A stretch of DNA of 22,567 nt from a virus: positions 1-22,567 of IMG/VR virus record IMGVR_UViG_3300030012_004454; one strand, 5' to 3'. Position numbers and translations under genes: made by a program. The notes under the pieces are model-generated. The model was not told where the DNA came from and made no database searches. It saw only the letters and a program-made list of their open reading frames with translations. Below, in pieces: positions 1 to 10,538 of this stretch. Every line of letters starts with the position of its first letter. Position 1 is the stretch's first letter.

Positions 1-143
1 TGATTGTTTCCAGATGCATTTATTTCTGGTGCGTAAATATTAATGCTACGTAACCAAACAGAATCAAATGTTTCTTCTGGTCTAGCAGGAATAACGAAAG
101 GTTCGTTTCTTGGTATTGGATCTCCTAAATTATCTTCGGGCAT
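1..143 (-). CDS. Truncated gene, N-terminal 47 residues of an unknown phage protein
   Basis: Reading leftward from an ATG at 143-141 the frame stays open to the window edge, giving about 47 residues that start MPEDNLGDPIPRNEPFVIPA and continue through a VWLRSINIYAPE stretch. I do not recognise the family. The many prolines and the aromatic/charged pattern look like a real N-terminus rather than random AT-rich sequence. It is divergent from the rightward gene at 207, and the 63-base gap holds an inverted repeat and a GTGTAATAATA element on its own strand. The product may be structural, but that is only a guess. Confidence 0.5.
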   Translation of the reverse strand, partial: MPEDNLGDPIPRNEPFVIPARPEETFDSVWLRSINIYAPEINASGNN

Positions 144-184
144 GATATATAATAGTTTTAATTATTTAAATTTCTATTTTATTA

Positions 185-198
185 TTACACTTGTGTAA
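185..198. promoter_or_regulatory. Inverted repeat in a divergent intergenic region, two facing GTGTAA elements
   Basis: TTACAC-TT-GTGTAA is a perfect 6-bp inverted repeat with a 2-base centre. Each arm reads as the GTGTAA element seen upstream of other genes here: on the minus strand GTGTAATAATAA faces the truncated gene (start 143), and on the plus strand GTGTAACTAATAAT runs straight into the GTG start at 207. It may be a pair of divergent promoter elements or an operator shared by both genes. Confidence 0.4.
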
Positions 199-206
199 CT
201 AATAAT

Positions 207-539
207 GTGAATTTAATTGTTGTATCTGATTTAACTACAAAAGAAGGACTATATTTTAGGTATTTAACAATGACTGCTAAGTCGTATTTAGGCATGGATG
301 TACTGGTCGAGGCGAGAAAAGAACAAATAGATTACTATTATAAACTACTTAAAAAGAAAGGTTTATATGATTTTGTTTCAGAGATTGTTCCACCAGAGTA
401 TGAAGTTGACGGCATAAGATTGGATACTGAATTAAATTATCCTTTAACAGTACAAACAAATGTAATTCATGCTTTTAATGTTACTAATCTAATAATGAAA
501 ATTAAAGGATTAGCTAAAATAAAAAAAGAATTGCTTTGA
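207..539 (+). CDS. Hypothetical protein, possibly a degenerate HAD-like phosphatase
   Basis: This 110-residue protein uses a GTG start; the ATG two bases earlier is followed at once by a stop in its own frame. It begins NLIVVSDLTTKEG, which resembles HAD motif I (DxDxT) but lacks the second aspartate. A later run, VEARKEQIDYYYKLLKKKGLYDF, resembles the helix of phage HAD-like proteins (a recruitment of residues around a lysine or arginine, then GL.D). The segment PPEYEVDGIRLD resembles the KP...IDD region. If it is a HAD relative it is probably not catalytic. The gene is alone on the plus strand between leftward genes, with only 14 bases from GTGTAA to the start. No Shine-Dalgarno site is visible. 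The functional assignment is weak, though the coding call is fairly good because the protein has balanced composition. Confidence 0.6.
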   Translation: MNLIVVSDLTTKEGLYFRYLTMTAKSYLGMDVLVEARKEQIDYYYKLLKKKGLYDFVSEIVPPEYEVDGIRLDTELNYPLTVQTNVIHAFNVTNLIMKIKGLAKIKKELL

Positions 540-606
540 TTTTTTAAAAATCCAAGAAAATATATCCCCTTATTTGGCAAAATATGATTCGATCTGGGAC
601 TTTTCT

Positions 607-1068
607 TTATTTGAACTTTGTTAATTCGCTCTGCTCCATGCAATAACCTTCACCATGTCCCAGGTTTTTAAGATTAGAAGGCTGTATTAAATCTTTTTTC
701 ATTGCATATCCTTTAATGTCTACCTCAGAATTATCTACAATACAGAGTACATACATATCAACATCTGGATTTTGTTTTTTTGTAGCTAAGAGTCTACCAG
801 ATTTGTATGTGGTGGATTTGATATCGTAAGCGTATCCTTTCAGCTTACCATCTGCACTGCCACTCCTGGGAGTTAACCCTAAGTCTGGAAAAGTATTAAA
901 TTGTTTTGCAAATGCATACTCAGCTTTCATACCCATGACATCTGCCTCACTGCCATCTTGAGTACCAACTTTTGCATCTTTAACTCCAGAACTTCTAGCA
1001 ATTATTGATCTCATTCTGCCTAACTGTTCACAGATTAAAACTTCATCTGGATTTAATTTAACAATCAT
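607..1068 (-). CDS. PD-(D/E)XK nuclease-like phage protein
   Basis: This is a 153-residue protein. Residues 46-56 (GMKAEYAFAKQ) supply an acidic residue in a helix (E50), residues 71-84 give a D73...D82-I-K84 arrangement (ADGKLKG followed by YDIKST), and then come hydrophobic strands (DMYVLCIVD, 104-112). This order, helix E, then D, then DxK, then strand, fits the PD-(D/E)XK nuclease fold known from phage resolvase/endonuclease-like proteins. The substrate is not predictable; recombination intermediates, host DNA or DNA repair are all possible. The ATG start lies 4 bases after the stop of the formyltransferase gene, so the two are probably cotranscribed. No Shine-Dalgarno site precedes it. 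The fold call is inferred from motif order only. Confidence 0.6.
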   Translation of the reverse strand: MIVKLNPDEVLICEQLGRMRSIIARSSGVKDAKVGTQDGSEADVMGMKAEYAFAKQFNTFPDLGLTPRSGSADGKLKGYAYDIKSTTYKSGRLLATKKQNPDVDMYVLCIVDNSEVDIKGYAMKKDLIQPSNLKNLGHGEGYCMEQSELTKFK

Positions 1069-1072
1069 TTAT

Positions 1073-1867
1073 TTACTCAGAATCTTTCCATCTTGGATAA
1101 GGTTTATTATTAGCTATTTTAAAAATCTTTTTAAATGAATCGCTCCATTTGTTTTTTACAATTGCATCATCTGGAGTTCTTGGGGGTAAATATATATTAA
1201 TATTATTATCAATGCAATATTTAAAAATATTTATCACATCCTGGCTATCTGTATGCTTAGCTATTTTTAATTGCCATTTAGCATTATCTATGGGATTATA
1301 ATCATTATTTAAAACTTCTATTAAAGCATCAACAGTTAGATCATCACACTTTTCAGTAAATTCTAACTCTGAACAATTAATATCATAAGAAAACTTTTTT
1401 ACTTTTAAAATTTTACCAGAGTCTACTTTTTTATCTATTTCCATGATAGAAACTCCCCACTGTGTATTATTTAACATTCTGCCCCAAACAAGAGAAGCTC
1501 CACCTTGTACATCAGGTAATATAGCTCCATGATTTCCTATAACAGTAAAAGAATTTATGATTGATTCTGGGACAATTCTAGAGTCGCCTAATAATATAAT
1601 TAAATCAATTTTTTTTTCTTTGCAAGCATTTTCAAAGAGATCCCATTCATTTGATCTTATAATACTTGGAGCATCTACATAAGAGTAGGATGAGAGAAAA
1701 CTGGCAAATGATATCGAATTGACTTTTTTATTAACAGATTGTCTATCAAGGCCAAGTATTATTTTTATTTCAACATTAGGCAGCTTTTTTAAAGCTGTAA
1801 GTCCTTTCAGAGTCAGTTTTGTATTACCTACAACTGCTATTTTAGTGATAGAATTTTGTCCGACCAT
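1073..1867 (-). CDS. Formyltransferase family protein, likely sugar or amino-group formylation
   Basis: This 264-residue protein has the layout of the methionyl-tRNA/sugar formyltransferase family, which moves a formyl group from 10-formyltetrahydrofolate to an amine. A Rossmann-like start (ITKIAVVGN) is followed by a typical active-site block at 109-123 (VIGNHGAILPDVQGG), an ASLVWGRM helix, and VDSGKIL at 148-154. H113 and D149 match the catalytic His and Asp. The usual Asn two residues before His is a glycine (G111), with Asn moved to 112, as in some non-canonical family members. The C-terminus keeps RTPDD...I and NKPYP (232-258), also typical. The substrate is unknown; an amino-sugar on host or phage glycan is plausible. 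Its 5' end overlaps the SGNH hydrolase gene by 31 bases, which implies translational coupling and a joint role. Confidence 0.75.
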   Translation of the reverse strand: MVGQNSITKIAVVGNTKLTLKGLTALKKLPNVEIKIILGLDRQSVNKKVNSISFASFLSSYSYVDAPSIIRSNEWDLFENACKEKKIDLIILLGDSRIVPESIINSFTVIGNHGAILPDVQGGASLVWGRMLNNTQWGVSIMEIDKKVDSGKILKVKKFSYDINCSELEFTEKCDDLTVDALIEVLNNDYNPIDNAKWQLKIAKHTDSQDVINIFKYCIDNNINIYLPPRTPDDAIVKNKWSDSFKKIFKIANNKPYPRWKDSE

Positions 1868-2391
1868 CTCCTGGCTACCTCATTATATCCTTCATGAGTA
1901 AAATGAACTCCATCGATTAGATAGTCTTGCATTCCCTCCATAGAGCAAACATCAAAATCTAGCGTAGCACTTAGATTTTTAATTAATTTATTATATTTTA
2001 AAGTCCAATCTCTATTCCTTGCATAGAAGGGACTAAAAGTTAATTCAGGTAAAGTTCCGACAATTGGAATCATGCCATTAGCTTTTATTGATAAAATTAT
2101 TTGTCTTAAATTATCTTCGTAGATATTTAAAGGGGTAGGTTTTTTTGTATCATTTGTACCAATCAATAATAAACATATTTTTGAGTCTCTATTTGACTTT
2201 ATAATATTCCAAGATCTCCTGAGCAAATCTGAGCTTGTCTCTCCATTTATTCCATAATTGTGACAAATGTAAAAGTCTCCAGTTTTTTCTGAAAGAATTT
2301 TACCTAATTCAGCAGGATAAGAGCGACCATATTTATCTCTAGCCCCATAAGTCAGAGAATCTCCAAGGCATAAAATTTCATTCCAAATCAT
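1837..2391 (-). CDS. SGNH/GDSL-family hydrolase
   Basis: The 184-residue protein has all four SGNH blocks in order. LGDSLTYG carries the nucleophile S12, NYGINGETSSDLL carries G48 (block II), LLLIGTNDT carries N80 (block III), and LIDGVHFTHEGY carries D160 and H163 (block V). The family hydrolyses esters, often acetyl groups on sugars, and the length is normal for a single-domain member. There is no signal peptide, so it acts in the cytoplasm or on phage particles after lysis. It is the first gene after the terminator at 2467 and overlaps the formyltransferase by 31 bases. Together they suggest editing of a saccharide (de-esterification plus N-formylation), but the substrate is inferred only. 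The start at 2391 is the first in-frame ATG and has no Shine-Dalgarno site. Confidence 0.85.
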   Translation of the reverse strand: MIWNEILCLGDSLTYGARDKYGRSYPAELGKILSEKTGDFYICHNYGINGETSSDLLRRSWNIIKSNRDSKICLLLIGTNDTKKPTPLNIYEDNLRQIILSIKANGMIPIVGTLPELTFSPFYARNRDWTLKYNKLIKNLSATLDFDVCSMEGMQDYLIDGVHFTHEGYNEVARRWSDKILSLK

Positions 2392-2397
2392 TAAATG

Positions 2398-2425
2398 ATG
2401 ATAAATATTAAAGTTAGAATTTCAA
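2398..2425 (-). promoter_or_regulatory. Candidate sigma70-type promoter for the SGNH gene
   Basis: On the minus strand TTGAAA (2425-2420) and TATCAT (2403-2398) are separated by 16 bases, matching the -35 and -10 consensus in 5 of 6 positions each. It lies between the terminator at 2467 and the ATG at 2391. The expected transcript start falls almost on that ATG, so the mRNA would be leaderless or nearly so. In such AT-rich sequence chance matches are common. Confidence 0.35.
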
Positions 2426-2456
2426 TACTTATTTATTTTTATTTTGTTAAATCCTG

Positions 2457-2488
2457 GAAATAAAAAGCCCTCTCCCGAAGGAGAGGGC
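2457..2488 (-). terminator. Rho-independent terminator after the ParB-like gene
   Basis: A perfect 9-bp GC-rich stem (GCCCTCTCC / GGAGAGGGC, 2467-2488) with a CGAA loop is followed on the minus strand by a T-rich run (complement of 2457-2466). It sits 16 bases after the stop of the ParB-like gene and ends the leftward early/accessory block. Confidence 0.9.
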
Positions 2489-2504
2489 CGTGAATAAATA
2501 ACTA

Positions 2505-3593
2505 TTAGTTATTTCTTTGATAGTATTTGTGCATATCAAATATAAGTCTCTGCCAACAATCAGCATTTCTTTTTGAAACGCCTTTTATATCTTTAGCTTT
2601 ATATTTGTCTGCAATATTATCATAATCATTAATTGTTTCAACGATTTGATATTTGCCTTTTGTTCCTCCCATTCTCCATTGTCCTCTTCTCATGATTTTA
2701 ATGATTTCATCTACATCATAAGATCCGCCTACACCGAAGTCCTCTCTAGAGTCTGTCAAGAATTGAGTGAGACCTGCCCAAATTTGCTGTCCCCACTGAT
2801 TAGTTACAGTGCCTTCAGCGTGTTCGGCGATCTCTCTTTTAAAGACTTGATCGATTATTGTTACAACATCTGTCATAACTTTAGCTCTAAAAGAGGCTTT
2901 ATCAGCTTCAGCTAACCCTACCCTTGGTACTCTGCCTAGCTCTCTTGCTATTGCATTGTACATAGTTTGGTGATATTTACCAATTTGCCCTGAAATATCG
3001 GTGACTTCAGATTTAAATTTGGTAACATCTTTAGGGTCATACCCCAATGCTTGGAATGCTTTAACTAAACCTTTAACAAACTTATTGTCTGTTTGTCTTA
3101 ATCTAGTTACCGCAACATACTGACACCAAAACTGAGCATGGACATCCCATACACTTTTTGTTTTTGGGTTGTTTGCTTGTAAGCACCTCTCAACTGGAGC
3201 CAGTGTATTAATTACACGGCCAGTTATTTCATCATGCGGATTAGCGCATGTGCGATTTTGGCCATCAATTATTTGCGGATATACCTTACCAGTCTTTTCA
3301 TCTTCATAGAGGTAAAAAGATGGCAAATCACAAATTTCGTCGTCCCAATTCTCTTGGATTTTAGAAATCTGTTTATGTTTTAACGCTCGCTGATATTGGG
3401 AATCTATTCCAAGATTTACGCGAGGTATTGTTGCTAGATTGTAAATGCCTACTTTTACTGTTTTTGGCATTTCATCTAACGGCTTTCCCATCACACCATA
3501 TCTTTCAATGGCTACATGATGTTTTTTATTGAAACCATAATTATGGTTTCGTTTGTTCCACTTGTAGTAAGCGGGGTCGTGGGTGTTGTTCAT
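2505..3593 (-). CDS. ParB-like nuclease-domain protein
   Basis: This is a 362-residue protein. Residues 55-120 resemble the ParB/Srx N-terminal domain: IPRVNLGIDSQYQRAL, then KIQENWD, a strand (PSFYLYED), and IIDGQNRTCA with the family signature DGQxR at 110-114. The rest (about 150-362) is mostly helical and unrecognised. Phage proteins of this type are annotated as ParB-like or DUF6551-like, with roles in DNA binding, nicking or gene control. It has no partner ParA here, so partition is unlikely. The ATG at 3593 is preceded by TATAAT (minus strand, 3615-3610) and, 57 bases up, by one copy of the 25-bp palindrome, which could be its own operator. A strong terminator follows. Confidence 0.65.
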   Translation of the reverse strand: MNNTHDPAYYKWNKRNHNYGFNKKHHVAIERYGVMGKPLDEMPKTVKVGIYNLATIPRVNLGIDSQYQRALKHKQISKIQENWDDEICDLPSFYLYEDEKTGKVYPQIIDGQNRTCANPHDEITGRVINTLAPVERCLQANNPKTKSVWDVHAQFWCQYVAVTRLRQTDNKFVKGLVKAFQALGYDPKDVTKFKSEVTDISGQIGKYHQTMYNAIARELGRVPRVGLAEADKASFRAKVMTDVVTIIDQVFKREIAEHAEGTVTNQWGQQIWAGLTQFLTDSREDFGVGGSYDVDEIIKIMRRGQWRMGGTKGKYQIVETINDYDNIADKYKAKDIKGVSKRNADCWQRLIFDMHKYYQRNN

Positions 3594-3627
3594 ATTCTGA
3601 TATACTTTTATTATACTGCATTCTGTT

Positions 3628-3697
3628 GGGGTTATGGCTTAGAAGACTTGCCACTAACATGCGACATGTGCTAGTTCTAAGTCCAACGGATAGCCCC
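3628..3697. ncRNA. Candidate structured RNA or attenuator around repeat copy A
   Basis: Three nested inverted repeats share one axis. The outer arms are GGGGTTAT (3628-3635) and ATAGCCCC (3690-3697). The middle arms are GGCTTAGAA (3636-3644) and TTCTAAG-T-CC (3675-3684). The inner one is the bulged palindrome at 3653-3675. The single imperfect outer pair is U-G if the plus strand is transcribed but A-C if the minus strand is, which slightly favours a plus-strand RNA. No coding call is convincing across this stretch. It could be an ncRNA, a leader structure of the ParB-like mRNA, or only a DNA-binding region. Confidence 0.35.
3651..3675 (-). repeat. 25-bp bulged palindromic repeat, copy A
   Basis: This 25-base sequence is identical to 4451-4475. 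Its core is ACTA-ACATG-CGA-CATGT-GC-TAGT: a 9-bp inverted repeat with a 3-base loop and a 2-base bulge on one side. It lies 57 bases upstream of the ParB-like gene start, with a TATAAT box between them. It could be a DNA operator or an RNA hairpin. Confidence 0.8.
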
Positions 3698-3746
3698 TCA
3701 TTTGCAATATATATTAAGTTATTATTTTGAGCTTTTGCTCGATTTA

Positions 3747-3777
3747 CATGACACTGACGTATCAGTTTTTCGTCATG
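3747..3777. promoter_or_regulatory. Long bulged hairpin between the Nmad1 gene and repeat A
   Basis: CATGAC-ACTGA (3747-3757) pairs with TCAGT (3762-3766) and GTCATG (3772-3777), leaving a CGTA loop and a TTTTC bulge, 11 bp in all. A second small hairpin (GAGC-TTTT-GCTC, 3729-3740) is adjacent. On the plus strand the inner stem runs into TTTTT and could be a weak terminator. On the minus strand it sits just after the stop codon of the Nmad1-like gene. Its function is unknown. Confidence 0.4.
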
Positions 3778-3785
3778 CAAAAATT

Positions 3786-4127
3786 TTATTTGGATTTCTT
3801 CTGTCCAATCTTAGATCTTTCTTCAATCAACATTGCCTTAGCTAAGATAGCATAATTTACAATGTCATCGCAAGCATCTTCTACTGTTTCATTAGGAACA
3901 GATAGTTCTTTATCTACTGTAAAAGATCTAATTCTTTGTACTTTATCAATCACACGTAACAATAAACCCTGGACTGGATGTATGTCAAGTATTTTTGATG
4001 AATTAAAATTTGCAAAAATATCTGTGGCTGTTTTGCCACCAGTATAGTCATTATTTTTCTTTACCATGATTGATTTGCACTTGGAACAAGTGTCTTCATG
4101 GATATCTAATAATTCATTTATATTCAT
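3786..4127 (-). CDS. Nucleotide modification associated domain 1 (Nmad1/DUF1599)-like protein
   Basis: The 113-residue all-helical protein shows the family pattern in order: a CxxC-containing first helix (residues 14-17), KKNNDYTGG (24-32), IFANF, a hydrophobic LLLRVIDKVQRI helix (about 55-66), and ETVEDACDDIVNYAILAKAM near the end. These match the DUF1599/Nmad1 group, which resembles MazG-type NTP pyrophosphohydrolases and is common in phages. The acidic residues (E, D, D in the last helix) would bind the metal/nucleotide. Its role may be in nucleotide pool control or base modification, but no modification enzyme is visible in this window. It follows a hairpin at 4136 and is probably in the same leftward operon as its neighbours. 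Confidence 0.75.
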   Translation of the reverse strand: MNINELLDIHEDTCSKCKSIMVKKNNDYTGGKTATDIFANFNSSKILDIHPVQGLLLRVIDKVQRIRSFTVDKELSVPNETVEDACDDIVNYAILAKAMLIEERSKIGQKKSK

Positions 4128-4135
4128 AAATTATT

Positions 4136-4163
4136 GGAGTGGGTTTTACCCCACTCCTTTTTT
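4136..4163 (+). terminator. Hairpin with T-run oriented for plus-strand termination
   Basis: A perfect 8-bp stem (GGAGTGGG / CCCACTCC, 4136-4157, loop TTTTAC) is followed on the plus strand by six T (4158-4163). In the minus direction, the direction of the flanking genes, only AATAATTT follows, a poor U-tract. It lies 4 bases from the stop of the gene at 4167. It may end an unseen plus-strand (antisense) transcript, or be a processing or stabilising hairpin in the leftward mRNA. Confidence 0.6.
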
Positions 4164-4166
4164 CAA

Positions 4167-4421
4167 TTAAACACGATCAACACACTTCGAGTGCCAGTTG
4201 TTGTGGAAGTACTTTTGAAGTTTATTGTCCAATAAAACTATCCAGTTATACAATTCAAGCTCTCTGTCTAAGTTTGTAATAGGGGCTGGACCAGCCTCTT
4301 TTACTAACTTATGAGCATAATTTGTAAGGTGAGGCATAGCTTCAAGGATAAAATCAAGTTTATCAGTGCTATCAAGTTCTATATTTATAGGTTTATCAAT
4401 CTTATGGTTGATATCATTCAT
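4167..4421 (-). CDS. Hypothetical protein, 84 residues
   Basis: I do not recognise this protein. From the ATG at 4421 it reads MNDINHKIDKPINIELDSTD, then two amphipathic helices (KLDFILEAMPHLTNYAHKLVKE and LDRELELYNWIVLLDNKLQKYF) and ends HSKCVDRV. An upstream ATG at 4511 would add 30 residues, but that extension translates the palindromic repeat B and the inverted repeat at 4492 and is poor in protein-like pattern, so I chose 4421. A CATAAT box (4433-4428) is only about 7 bases upstream, so the message may be leaderless. It is cytoplasmic and probably helical. A hairpin follows the stop. Confidence 0.6.
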   Translation of the reverse strand: MNDINHKIDKPINIELDSTDKLDFILEAMPHLTNYAHKLVKEAGPAPITNLDRELELYNWIVLLDNKLQKYFHNNWHSKCVDRV

Positions 4422-4450
4422 AGTATTATTATGTCGCGGTTGTTTAGATC

Positions 4451-4477
4451 CCACTAACATGCGACATGTGCTAGTGG
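4451..4477 (-). repeat. Bulged palindromic repeat, copy B, with extended stem
   Basis: Bases 4451-4475 are identical to 3651-3675. Here the outer CC/GG bases also pair (CCACTA ... TAGTGG), so the stem has 11 bp with the same 2-base bulge and 3-base loop. It lies 29 bases upstream of the gene starting at 4421, and its TAGTGG arm falls where a -35 box would be relative to the CATAAT box at 4433. Confidence 0.8.
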
Positions 4478-4491
4478 TCTTTTGTTTTTTA

Positions 4492-4516
4492 TTTGTATGA
4501 TGATATTTCATACAAA
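4492..4516. promoter_or_regulatory. Perfect 9-bp inverted repeat next to repeat B
   Basis: TTTGTATGA and TCATACAAA flank a 7-base spacer (TGATATT). No good T-run follows on either strand, so it is not an obvious intrinsic terminator. It lies 13 bases after the stop of the membrane protein at 4530 and 14 bases from repeat B, which makes this short intergenic region a likely control site. Confidence 0.5.
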
Positions 4517-4529
4517 ATTTATAAATTCA

Positions 4530-5285: not shown

Positions 5286-5625
5286 GATATAAAATTGTAT
5301 AGTTATCAGGCTTGATACCAATTACATTAAAATCAATGTACTCGATAGCCTCCTCCATAGACATACCATCTCCCTTGAAATGTTCAACCATTTTTTCATA
5401 AGAATATACCAGAAACCCTCTTTGGTCTATTCCTGTAATACAATCGTCTAGCCCATCAAACTTGATTGCTTCATCAGCGATGAACGGATCAAGTTCTAAT
5501 ATTTCTTCCCATGTAATTTTATTAGAGACTATTTTGCGTCCCCGATCTGAACACACAGAGAAGAATCGTAAGATAAAAAAGACTACGATTATCCAGGCGG
5601 CAAAAATTAAAATATAATTTAACAT
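5278..5625 (-). CDS. N-terminally membrane-anchored hypothetical phage protein
   Basis: From the ATG at 5625 (115 residues; a TTG at 5640 is an alternative) an N-terminal span covers about 2-21 (LNYILIFAAWIIVVFFILRF). The soluble part has FDGLDDCITGIDQRGFLVYSYEKM, then GMSMEEAIEYIDFNVIG. The core (an acidic FDD/GLDD start, a tyrosine-rich strand, then GMS.EEA.EY..yNV.G) is a pattern I know from small phage proteins of unknown function; those usually lack the membrane anchor. The anchor is therefore the unusual part. It overlaps the following gene by 8 bases. Confidence 0.6.
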   Translation of the reverse strand: MLNYILIFAAWIIVVFFILRFFSVCSDRGRKIVSNKITWEEILELDPFIADEAIKFDGLDDCITGIDQRGFLVYSYEKMVEHFKGDGMSMEEAIEYIDFNVIGIKPDNYTILYHE

Positions 5626-6872: not shown

Positions 6873-7064
6873 TTAATCCTCAGACTTCTGCTTGGCTTTT
6901 CCAATATTTAGGGCTGCCCAATCTATGAGAGCGTAAACTTTAGCCCAAATTGATCCTTTTTTCGGAGTAGGTGTAGCAGCAGTGACCGCAGAAGCAAAAG
7001 CTATAAGGGCTGTTAAAACACCAAACCAAGGGTTGTCTTCAATAAGTTTAAGTATTATTTCCAT
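6873..7064 (-). CDS. Small holin-like membrane protein
   Basis: This 63-residue protein has one strong membrane span (about 12-31, PWFGVLTALIAFASAVTAAT), then TPTPKKGSIWAKVYALIDWAALNIGKAKQ. The combination of PWFG, a membrane span, TPTPK.G and NIGKAK is one I associate with small phage membrane proteins often annotated as holins. A second amphipathic segment (44-56) could insert as well. It is the last gene of the lysis operon, after the pyrophosphatase, and has its own GTGTAA element at 7081-7097. With another holin candidate at 9460 it may act as a partner, antiholin or pinholin. The holin assignment is not proven. Confidence 0.6.
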   Translation of the reverse strand: MEIILKLIEDNPWFGVLTALIAFASAVTAATPTPKKGSIWAKVYALIDWAALNIGKAKQKSED

Positions 7065-7097: not shown

Positions 7098-7700
7098 CTA
7101 ATCTGGGTGAACTATGTACTCGCCATTCCTAATTTTTCCCCAAAAATTTTTATCTGACCATTGCTGGTGAAATCTCTCTTTATTGGCATCTTTCCACCTA
7201 TCATATGATTCTTTTAGTGTTTTTATTGCAACCGAAGAGCTTTTCCAATCTCCAACTTTTGTTGTAGATTTTCTATCAAGCTTATAAATTTTAAAGAATT
7301 GTCTAAAAATTTTTAGATGCTCTGGTTCTATGTCATGCAGTTTACTATATCTTTCTTTTGGAGACCAATGTGGAACTGCTATTAATTTATTATCTATCTC
7401 CCCGTCATCCTCAAACCCTAACATTCCCAGGATTCTACAACTTACCAAAGTCCCTCTGTCGATTGGGTCATGATTAAAAACTAAAACATCAAGGGGATCT
7501 TTATCTAAAGCTATTGTTCTAGGAATAAATCCATAATTTATTGGGTATTGTAAAGATGATACCAAACATCTAGTTAGTTCAAAAATATTTAATTTCTCAT
7601 TGTACTCGTATTTAGTATTTGTACCCTTTGGAATTTCAATAATACAGTTTACATGAGCGTAATCGTCATCAGTGATCGGTATATCATTTACTAAATTCAT
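7098..7700 (-). CDS. ppa: Soluble inorganic pyrophosphatase, family I
   Basis: The 200-residue protein hydrolyses PPi to two phosphates with Mg2+. The family signature DxDPxD is present at 66-71 (DKDPLD). Other active-site residues can be placed against the E. coli enzyme: E22, K30, E32, R44, Y52, Y56 (QYPINYGFIPRT), D66, D68, D71, D98, D103 and K105 (EDDGEIDNKLIAVP), plus a YK at 139-140. So it should be active. The C-terminal part (after about 155, ESYDRWKDANKERFHQQW) is not part of the conserved core. Removing PPi pulls DNA and RNA synthesis forward, which would help a phage in a nutrient-poor host. It lies, oddly, within the lysis operon, 15 bases after a 44-residue basic protein. Confidence 0.92.
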   Translation of the reverse strand: MNLVNDIPITDDDYAHVNCIIEIPKGTNTKYEYNEKLNIFELTRCLVSSLQYPINYGFIPRTIALDKDPLDVLVFNHDPIDRGTLVSCRILGMLGFEDDGEIDNKLIAVPHWSPKERYSKLHDIEPEHLKIFRQFFKIYKLDRKSTTKVGDWKSSSVAIKTLKESYDRWKDANKERFHQQWSDKNFWGKIRNGEYIVHPD

Positions 7701-9851: not shown

Positions 9852-10538
9852 TTAAAAATCAAATTTTAGTCCAGCACCAACAATCCACTCATCTTCAACA
9901 GTAAAAGCTGAATTATCAAAGTCGTTATTGTTGTAGGATAACTTAGCTGAAACAGAAAGCTTATCACTAATTGGATAGCTAGCTCTGACACCAGCTTCTA
10001 CAGCTGTATACTCATCTGCAAGATTTACAGTGAGGAATGGGGTCGCAATAAGATCATTGACTGGAGTGCCTACGGCGCGTGAAATGCCTAGTTCTACTCC
10101 AAACCAATCGTTTTCTAGCTCATGCCAAACTGCTGCTGATGCATCAAAAAGGCTGTAGCCATATGTGAGACCAACCGCAACTTCTTCGCGATCACCGAAA
10201 GCAGAATCGAGACCAGAGAAGCTTGCTTTTGCTCCAAGCTTTTGCCCTGCAATTTCAATTGGTCTACTATAAGAAACAGAATATGATCCATCTGTATCAT
10301 CATCTGCGTCTGCAAGACCTAAACCAATAGAAAAATCTCCACCAGCAAGAGGGGCTGTCAATGACAGGGAGTAATCAAATGAATCTTCTCTTACTGCTAA
10401 ACCTCTATCTGTAGTGAAGTTGCTTACTGAAATACCACCACTAACACCAATATTATCGGCTAATGTAGTAGCATTTGACTCTGCACCACTAAAAGCGATG
10501 CCTAACGCGGCCAGGAGGCCAAGTATTATATTTTTCAT
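9852..10538 (-). CDS. Secreted outer-membrane beta-barrel protein
   Basis: The 228-residue protein has a signal peptide (residues 1-23, MKNIILGLLAALGIAF core, likely cut after SNA). The mature part shows alternating hydrophobic/polar strands (SFDYSLSLTAPL, DFSIGLGLAD, SYSVSYSRPI, VAVGLTYGYS, WFGVELGISRA, TAVEAGVRASYP) and ends WIVGAGLKFDF. The terminal Phe and penultimate strand are the usual signal for BAM insertion, so this should be an 8-10 stranded barrel in the outer membrane of a Gram-negative host. It might block superinfection, alter permeability, or mimic a host porin. Two 60-base lines counted in it are 40-43% G+C, above the neighbours, which suggests recent acquisition. It is followed by a terminator. 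Confidence 0.75.
   Translation of the reverse strand: MKNIILGLLAALGIAFSGAESNATTLADNIGVSGGISVSNFTTDRGLAVREDSFDYSLSLTAPLAGGDFSIGLGLADADDDTDGSYSVSYSRPIEIAGQKLGAKASFSGLDSAFGDREEVAVGLTYGYSLFDASAAVWHELENDWFGVELGISRAVGTPVNDLIATPFLTVNLADEYTAVEAGVRASYPISDKLSVSAKLSYNNNDFDNSAFTVEDEWIVGAGLKFDF

Follow-up and report, generated by a model that had tools for sequence, protein, structure and literature searches.

A 25-bp bulged palindrome repeated upstream of two accessory genes of an uncultured marine phage: a possible shared control site

We analysed a stretch of 22,567 bp (hereafter the window), which is the whole of its virus record, and found that it contains two copies, and only two, of a 25-bp palindromic element, duplicated exactly; each copy precedes an accessory gene, in a segment specific to this lineage, and one of the two genes has a terminator behind it. 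The reading that we favour, tentatively and with somewhat less than even confidence, is that two accessory (moron-like) transcription units have the element in common as a cis-acting control site, which probably acts as DNA. The copies, the genes below them and the terminator are located as follows.

3651..3675, minus strand: first exact occurrence of the 25-bp element (copy A), in front of the accessory 'ParB-like' gene; present in contig L003 too
4451..4477, minus strand: second exact occurrence (copy B), in front of the ORFan p84; CC/GG pairing lengthens its stem, for 27 bp in total
2505..3593, minus strand: accessory gene of 362 aa with a DGQ-type 'ParB-like' N-terminal domain; sub-threshold DUF6551/DndB matches in family members
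2466..2489, minus strand: intrinsic terminator after the ParB-like gene, GGCCCTCTCCTTCGGGAGAGGGCT followed by a T-run
4167..4421, minus strand: the ORFan p84 (84 aa), below copy B; searches gave neither a family or phage match nor a relative

The initial annotation of this DNA had reported that one 25-mer recurs exactly, and this was reproduced, as CCACTAACATGCGACATGTGCTAGT is identical at 3651-3675 and 4451-4475, with both copies in the same orientation. Its description of a bulged palindrome (ACTA-ACATG-CGA-CATGT-GC-TAGT) was also accurate, as were the two additional stem pairs of copy B (CC/GG, 4451-4452 with 4476-4477) and the distances to the start codons, 57 bases for copy A (ATG at 3593) and 29 bases for copy B (ATG at 4421). 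At copy A the partner for the extra pairs is missing, with TC at 3676-3677. The absence of a third copy was borne out by a scan of the window allowing up to three mismatches, which returned the two sites alone, and none in 100 dinucleotide shuffles; moreover, the 25-mer was the sole direct repeat found in an exact 17-mer scan of the window. The 25-mer is palindromic beyond chance: an inverted repeat of at least nine pairs with at most one bulge occurred in 69 of 20,000 random 25-mers from the window (0.35%), and in 18 of 20,000 shuffles of the 25-mer itself (0.09%). Both copies are intergenic and share the same orientation relative to the downstream gene. Their flanks are unrelated, while the 25 bp are identical including the loop and the bulge, which fits either recognition of the sequence or recent copying.

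We then focused on the genomic setting of the two copies. The window is part of an uncultured marine phage with lambda-type tail genes (tail protein L and a J-like tip protein), and includes a leftward run of small genes, all genes of the copy A/B region being leftward. Using the DUF1599 protein (3786-4127) as a query, a large set of syntenic relatives was obtained. Compared with the closest of these, the window is colinear to 4521, divergent from 4520 to 4128, conserved in the DUF1599 gene and divergent again below it, and two segments stand out.

4128..4520, minus strand: replacement segment of 393 bp with copy B and p84; homology to L006, L011 and L014 ends at 4521 and resumes at 4127-4133
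3535..3718, minus strand: segment with copy A, differing from L005; 184 bp here against about 69 bp in L005

In place of the replacement segment, relatives have a 125-aa gene together with further genes, of HNH type or other. In L006, L011 and L014 the gene after p74 is this 125-aa gene (start ATGTGGCAT), of which the window retains the first nine bases (4540-4532), followed by new sequence with copy B and p84. On the other side, DUF1599 directly abuts a 153-aa gene in L014, while between these two the window has the 'ParB-like' gene, a GDSL hydrolase and a formyltransferase gene. Judged from these sequence comparisons, each copy is in the upstream region of an accessory gene and within sequence common to no known relative.

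Several other features of this region were also observed. The p74-DUF1599 interval (4128-4520) is a hypervariable spot, where two HNH-family genes precede DUF1599 in L005. The replaced segment also contains a perfect 9-bp inverted repeat at 4485-4509 (TTTGTATGA/TCATACAAA), immediately upstream of copy B. After DUF1599, on the minus strand, a second bulged hairpin is found at 3747-3777 (CATGAC-GAAAA-ACTGA-TACG-TCAGT-GTCATG), which is kept in L005 with its bulge and loop changed (GGAT, TAAG) and is thus a candidate conserved 3' element. In L027, a 17-mer from the DUF1599 end (GAAAGATCCCAGATCGA) at 5306 recurs 1.6 kb downstream, at 6908, which suggests a partial duplication of the DUF1599 gene end around inserted genes. 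In addition, the window carries auxiliary-type genes for a formyltransferase, a GDSL hydrolase, an inorganic pyrophosphatase and a possible outer-membrane beta-barrel protein (sub-threshold OMP_b-brl), at 1073-1867, 1837-2391, 7098-7700 and 9852-10538.

Regarding the products of the two accessory genes, the ParB-like protein has the DGQ motif and no Pfam match of its own, its matches to DUF6551 (E 0.0067) and DndB being sub-threshold and obtained via homologues. Its predicted structure (pLDDT 51) was too poor for fold assignment, and a fold search with this weak model ranked sulfiredoxin, a protein of the ParB/Srx fold, third and fourth with E above 2. The protein is only weakly ParB-like. The structure prediction of p84 (pLDDT 60) was too poor to use.

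Outside the window, the element was found in a single further contig, L003, which is evidently from the same virus: it is 100% identical over window positions 1-4067 and includes copy A with its flanks. No independent contig carries copy B. With the provision that collection scans may omit records very near the window's own genome, the 25-mer, exact or with the loop and bulge bases left free, was found in none of 2.9 million viral contigs except L003, and was absent in either form from the GTDB genome collection; the inner 16-mer GCACATGTCGCATGTT was likewise matched in L003 alone. A search for covarying arms in the viral contigs and GTDB genomes gave 120 outer-arm sites, with inner pairing at chance level. 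Among the relatives, the element was absent from 39 related records at up to three mismatches, and 686 kb of related loci together with the window gave no match beyond the two known copies at up to six mismatches. A covariance model run on the related loci and the window recovered the two copies only, plus a weak reverse-strand shadow of copy B, and Rfam gave chance-level matches only, none at gathering level. A similar core (ACTANNACATG) in L028 and L031 lies within the coding sequence of a conserved gene and was attributed to chance. Absence at equivalent positions in related phages, the outcome that the initial annotation had named as refuting its proposal, was observed for every relative found; this speaks against an operator that is conserved, but one specific to the lineage would be compatible with it.

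In the shared control site that we favour, a putative dimeric regulator, from the phage or the host and other than the ParB-like protein, would bind the palindrome just upstream of each -10 region and would switch p84 together with the 'ParB-like' gene, which has a terminator of its own. This supposes that the -10-like boxes below the copies act as promoters, that a protein may bind the site, and that the signal is probably read as DNA rather than RNA.

3610..3615, minus strand: TATAAT, resembling a -10 box and lying between copy A and the ATG, without a recognisable -35; the strand has 23 such hexamers in the window
4428..4433, minus strand: CATAAT, a weak -10-like hexamer, by sequence, between copy B and the p84 ATG

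The TATAAT box lies 35 bp downstream of copy A and lacks a -35, a pattern as found at activator-dependent promoters. Identity between the copies extends to bases that a hairpin alone would leave unconstrained, and a strong terminator, over which windows gave the top folding z-scores, closes the ParB-like unit, a further point in favour. On the opposite side, promoter-like matches in the region occur at shuffled frequency. The dyad is 54 bp from the -10-like box at copy A and 36 bp at copy B, a difference that is not a whole number of helical turns. Relative to the assumed starts the dyad would lie near -61 and -43, an activator-like spacing that depends on the -10 chosen for copy B and was set aside. 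Because of the bulge, the centres of the palindrome halves are 1 bp apart, which is odd for a dimer site. Moreover, just two copies are known, from about 22.6 kb of available genome, and the relatives carry none. If the element is indeed a shared switch, the phage would be placing recently gained add-on genes under common control through copies of a 25-bp tag in front of them, and the case would come from an uncultured marine phage group of whose regulation little is known.

The same bulge is easier to reconcile with an RNA hairpin than with a dimer site in a duplex, and the main rival, which we consider rather unlikely, is a leader-RNA element, in which leftward transcripts carry a hairpin with stem ACUAGCA/UGUUAGU and loop CAUGUCGCA. 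In the gene-sense RNA, a G.U pair makes the stem continuous over 7 bp at copy A and 9 bp at copy B, with a 9-nt loop, and RNAfold slightly prefers this form over the bulged one for both copies; the continuous 9-bp stem of copy B exists on the gene-sense strand only. Furthermore, the loop of copy B has a candidate partner.

4430..4436, minus strand: GCGACAU, complement of the copy B loop AUGUCGC, with which it may form the second stem of an H-type pseudoknot; the p84 ATG follows after 8 nt

The resulting pseudoknot, with stems of 9 bp and 7 bp and loops of 1, 1 and 13 nt, is the best H-type candidate in the window (summed stem energy -28.9 vs -22.4 for the runner-up), and none of 1000 shuffles was as good, in a test that is partly circular as the hairpin was chosen beforehand. 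Given the hairpin, the chance of a 7-nt partner so near is about 0.003, or about 0.01 when two copies and two strands are allowed for. Such a structure at p84 might control translation or RNA processing, or an RNA-binding protein might bind. However, the loop of copy A has no partner, its hairpin lies 4.0 kcal/mol above the best fold, the folding z-scores of the element are ordinary compared with the rest of the window, and neither a covarying version nor an Rfam match was found. The -10-like boxes also lie downstream of the element, so that a transcript starting at the TATAAT between copy A and the ATG would exclude it. A lineage-specific RNA regulator, with one hairpin copied before two unrelated add-on genes and one RNA-binding factor controlling both, through a pseudoknot near the start codon of p84 and an extended hairpin before the other gene, we regard as quite improbable. 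We place DNA slightly ahead of RNA because the copies share their sequence but no common RNA context. A -1 ribosomal frameshift signal (A-AAA-AAC, 6 nt before the copy B stem) was considered and rejected, the zero frame being closed by a TGA just upstream and having no standard start codon.

It is also conceivable, though improbable, that the element marks junctions of accessory-gene exchange, as a recombination seam or mobile palindrome that need not control expression. The hypervariable spot holds both copies, each within a replaced segment and with unrelated flanks, relatives carry HNH-endonuclease genes, one of them directly upstream of DUF1599 where the window has copy B and p84, and a similar role has been proposed for the promoter/stem-loop cassettes of T4-type phages. 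Nevertheless, neither copy sits exactly at a homology breakpoint, copy B being about 45 bp and copy A about 43 bp inside, and the scan of window genes recognised neither a recombinase nor a transposase. The relatives, the other viral contigs and the GTDB genomes likewise yielded no copy. The conserved DUF1599 gene lies between the copies, so that the pair bounds no insert, and an excised or inserted element delimited by the two copies was ruled out on this ground.

An intrinsic terminator for rightward transcription is very improbable, as copy A lacks a T-run (TCTAAGTCC) and the genes of the region are all leftward, even though copy B is followed on the plus strand by TCTTTTGTTTTTT and a further plus-strand terminator occurs at 4136-4157. 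The hairpin at the latter position is strong and terminator-like, with a T6, in spite of neighbouring genes that all run leftward.

The interpretation given in the initial annotation is supported in part: an operator or an RNA hairpin target may still be right, whereas the idea of an operator of the ParB-like protein, suggested by copy A lying immediately upstream of its gene, is rejected as its homologues lack the palindrome upstream: among the five checked, it is absent from L005, which encodes an 83%-identical protein in the same place behind a shorter leader, from the three 45% homologues (L084, L085, L086) and from the 24% homologue (L011, the same as L087), and the protein is not recognisable as a DNA-binding ParB. 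The element does not co-occur with the ParB-like gene in these homologues and was not assigned to ParB/parS-type operators; the 24% homologue has two upstream hairpins, unrelated to the 25-bp element.

The PeSL cassette of phages contains an early sigma70-type promoter, and its stem-loop works as a terminator in the direction of the genes. PeSLs were described in T4-type phages (Arbiol et al. 2010 and Comeau et al. 2014, cited in PMC4503421 and PMC3950731), and a parallel in archaeal viruses is reported; the criteria applied here are those given by the two citing papers, together with general knowledge. As far as these accounts go, the element resembles PeSLs in being an intergenic repeated stem-loop beside exchangeable accessory genes, with a promoter-like box nearby, but differs in that there are two copies and a candidate promoter only, in a phage with lambda-type tail genes that is not T4-like. 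The leftward strand has no T-run after either copy, and the stem-loop is therefore no terminator for the genes; the boxes at the two copies (TATAAT and CATAAT, respectively) have no -35, with promoter-like matches at the level of shuffles. Cluster O mycobacteriophages carry 17-bp palindromic repeats, 34 of them in phage Corndog, some within genes; the 7-bp arms are perfect, the centre varies, and all cluster members have the repeats (PMC4351075). The present element is likewise an invariant inverted repeat with a 3-bp centre at several places in one phage group, but has two copies in 22.6 kb, contains a bulge and is found in none of the 39 related records. In Cluster K mycobacteriophages, the ESAS of the SAS/ESAS elements has 17-bp arms, is tied to a conserved start-site motif and is conserved between phages with its gene (PMC3203893); imperfect inverted repeats near a start codon, upstream of a subset of genes, are common to both cases, but none of these ESAS features is present here and the element is absent beside the 83% identical gene in L005. 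Overall, the element is like all three in placement, and probably in role, but lacks at least one defining feature of each and was not assigned to any of them. It is one more lineage-specific repeated intergenic palindrome, which nothing yet distinguishes from those known in other phages.

Tandem repeats with a 21-bp period (TCTAGCG.TGGTATCGGATCG or similar) were also observed in several relatives, L042 (835-950), L045 (3-180), L046 (1029-1235) and L047 (1095-1217).
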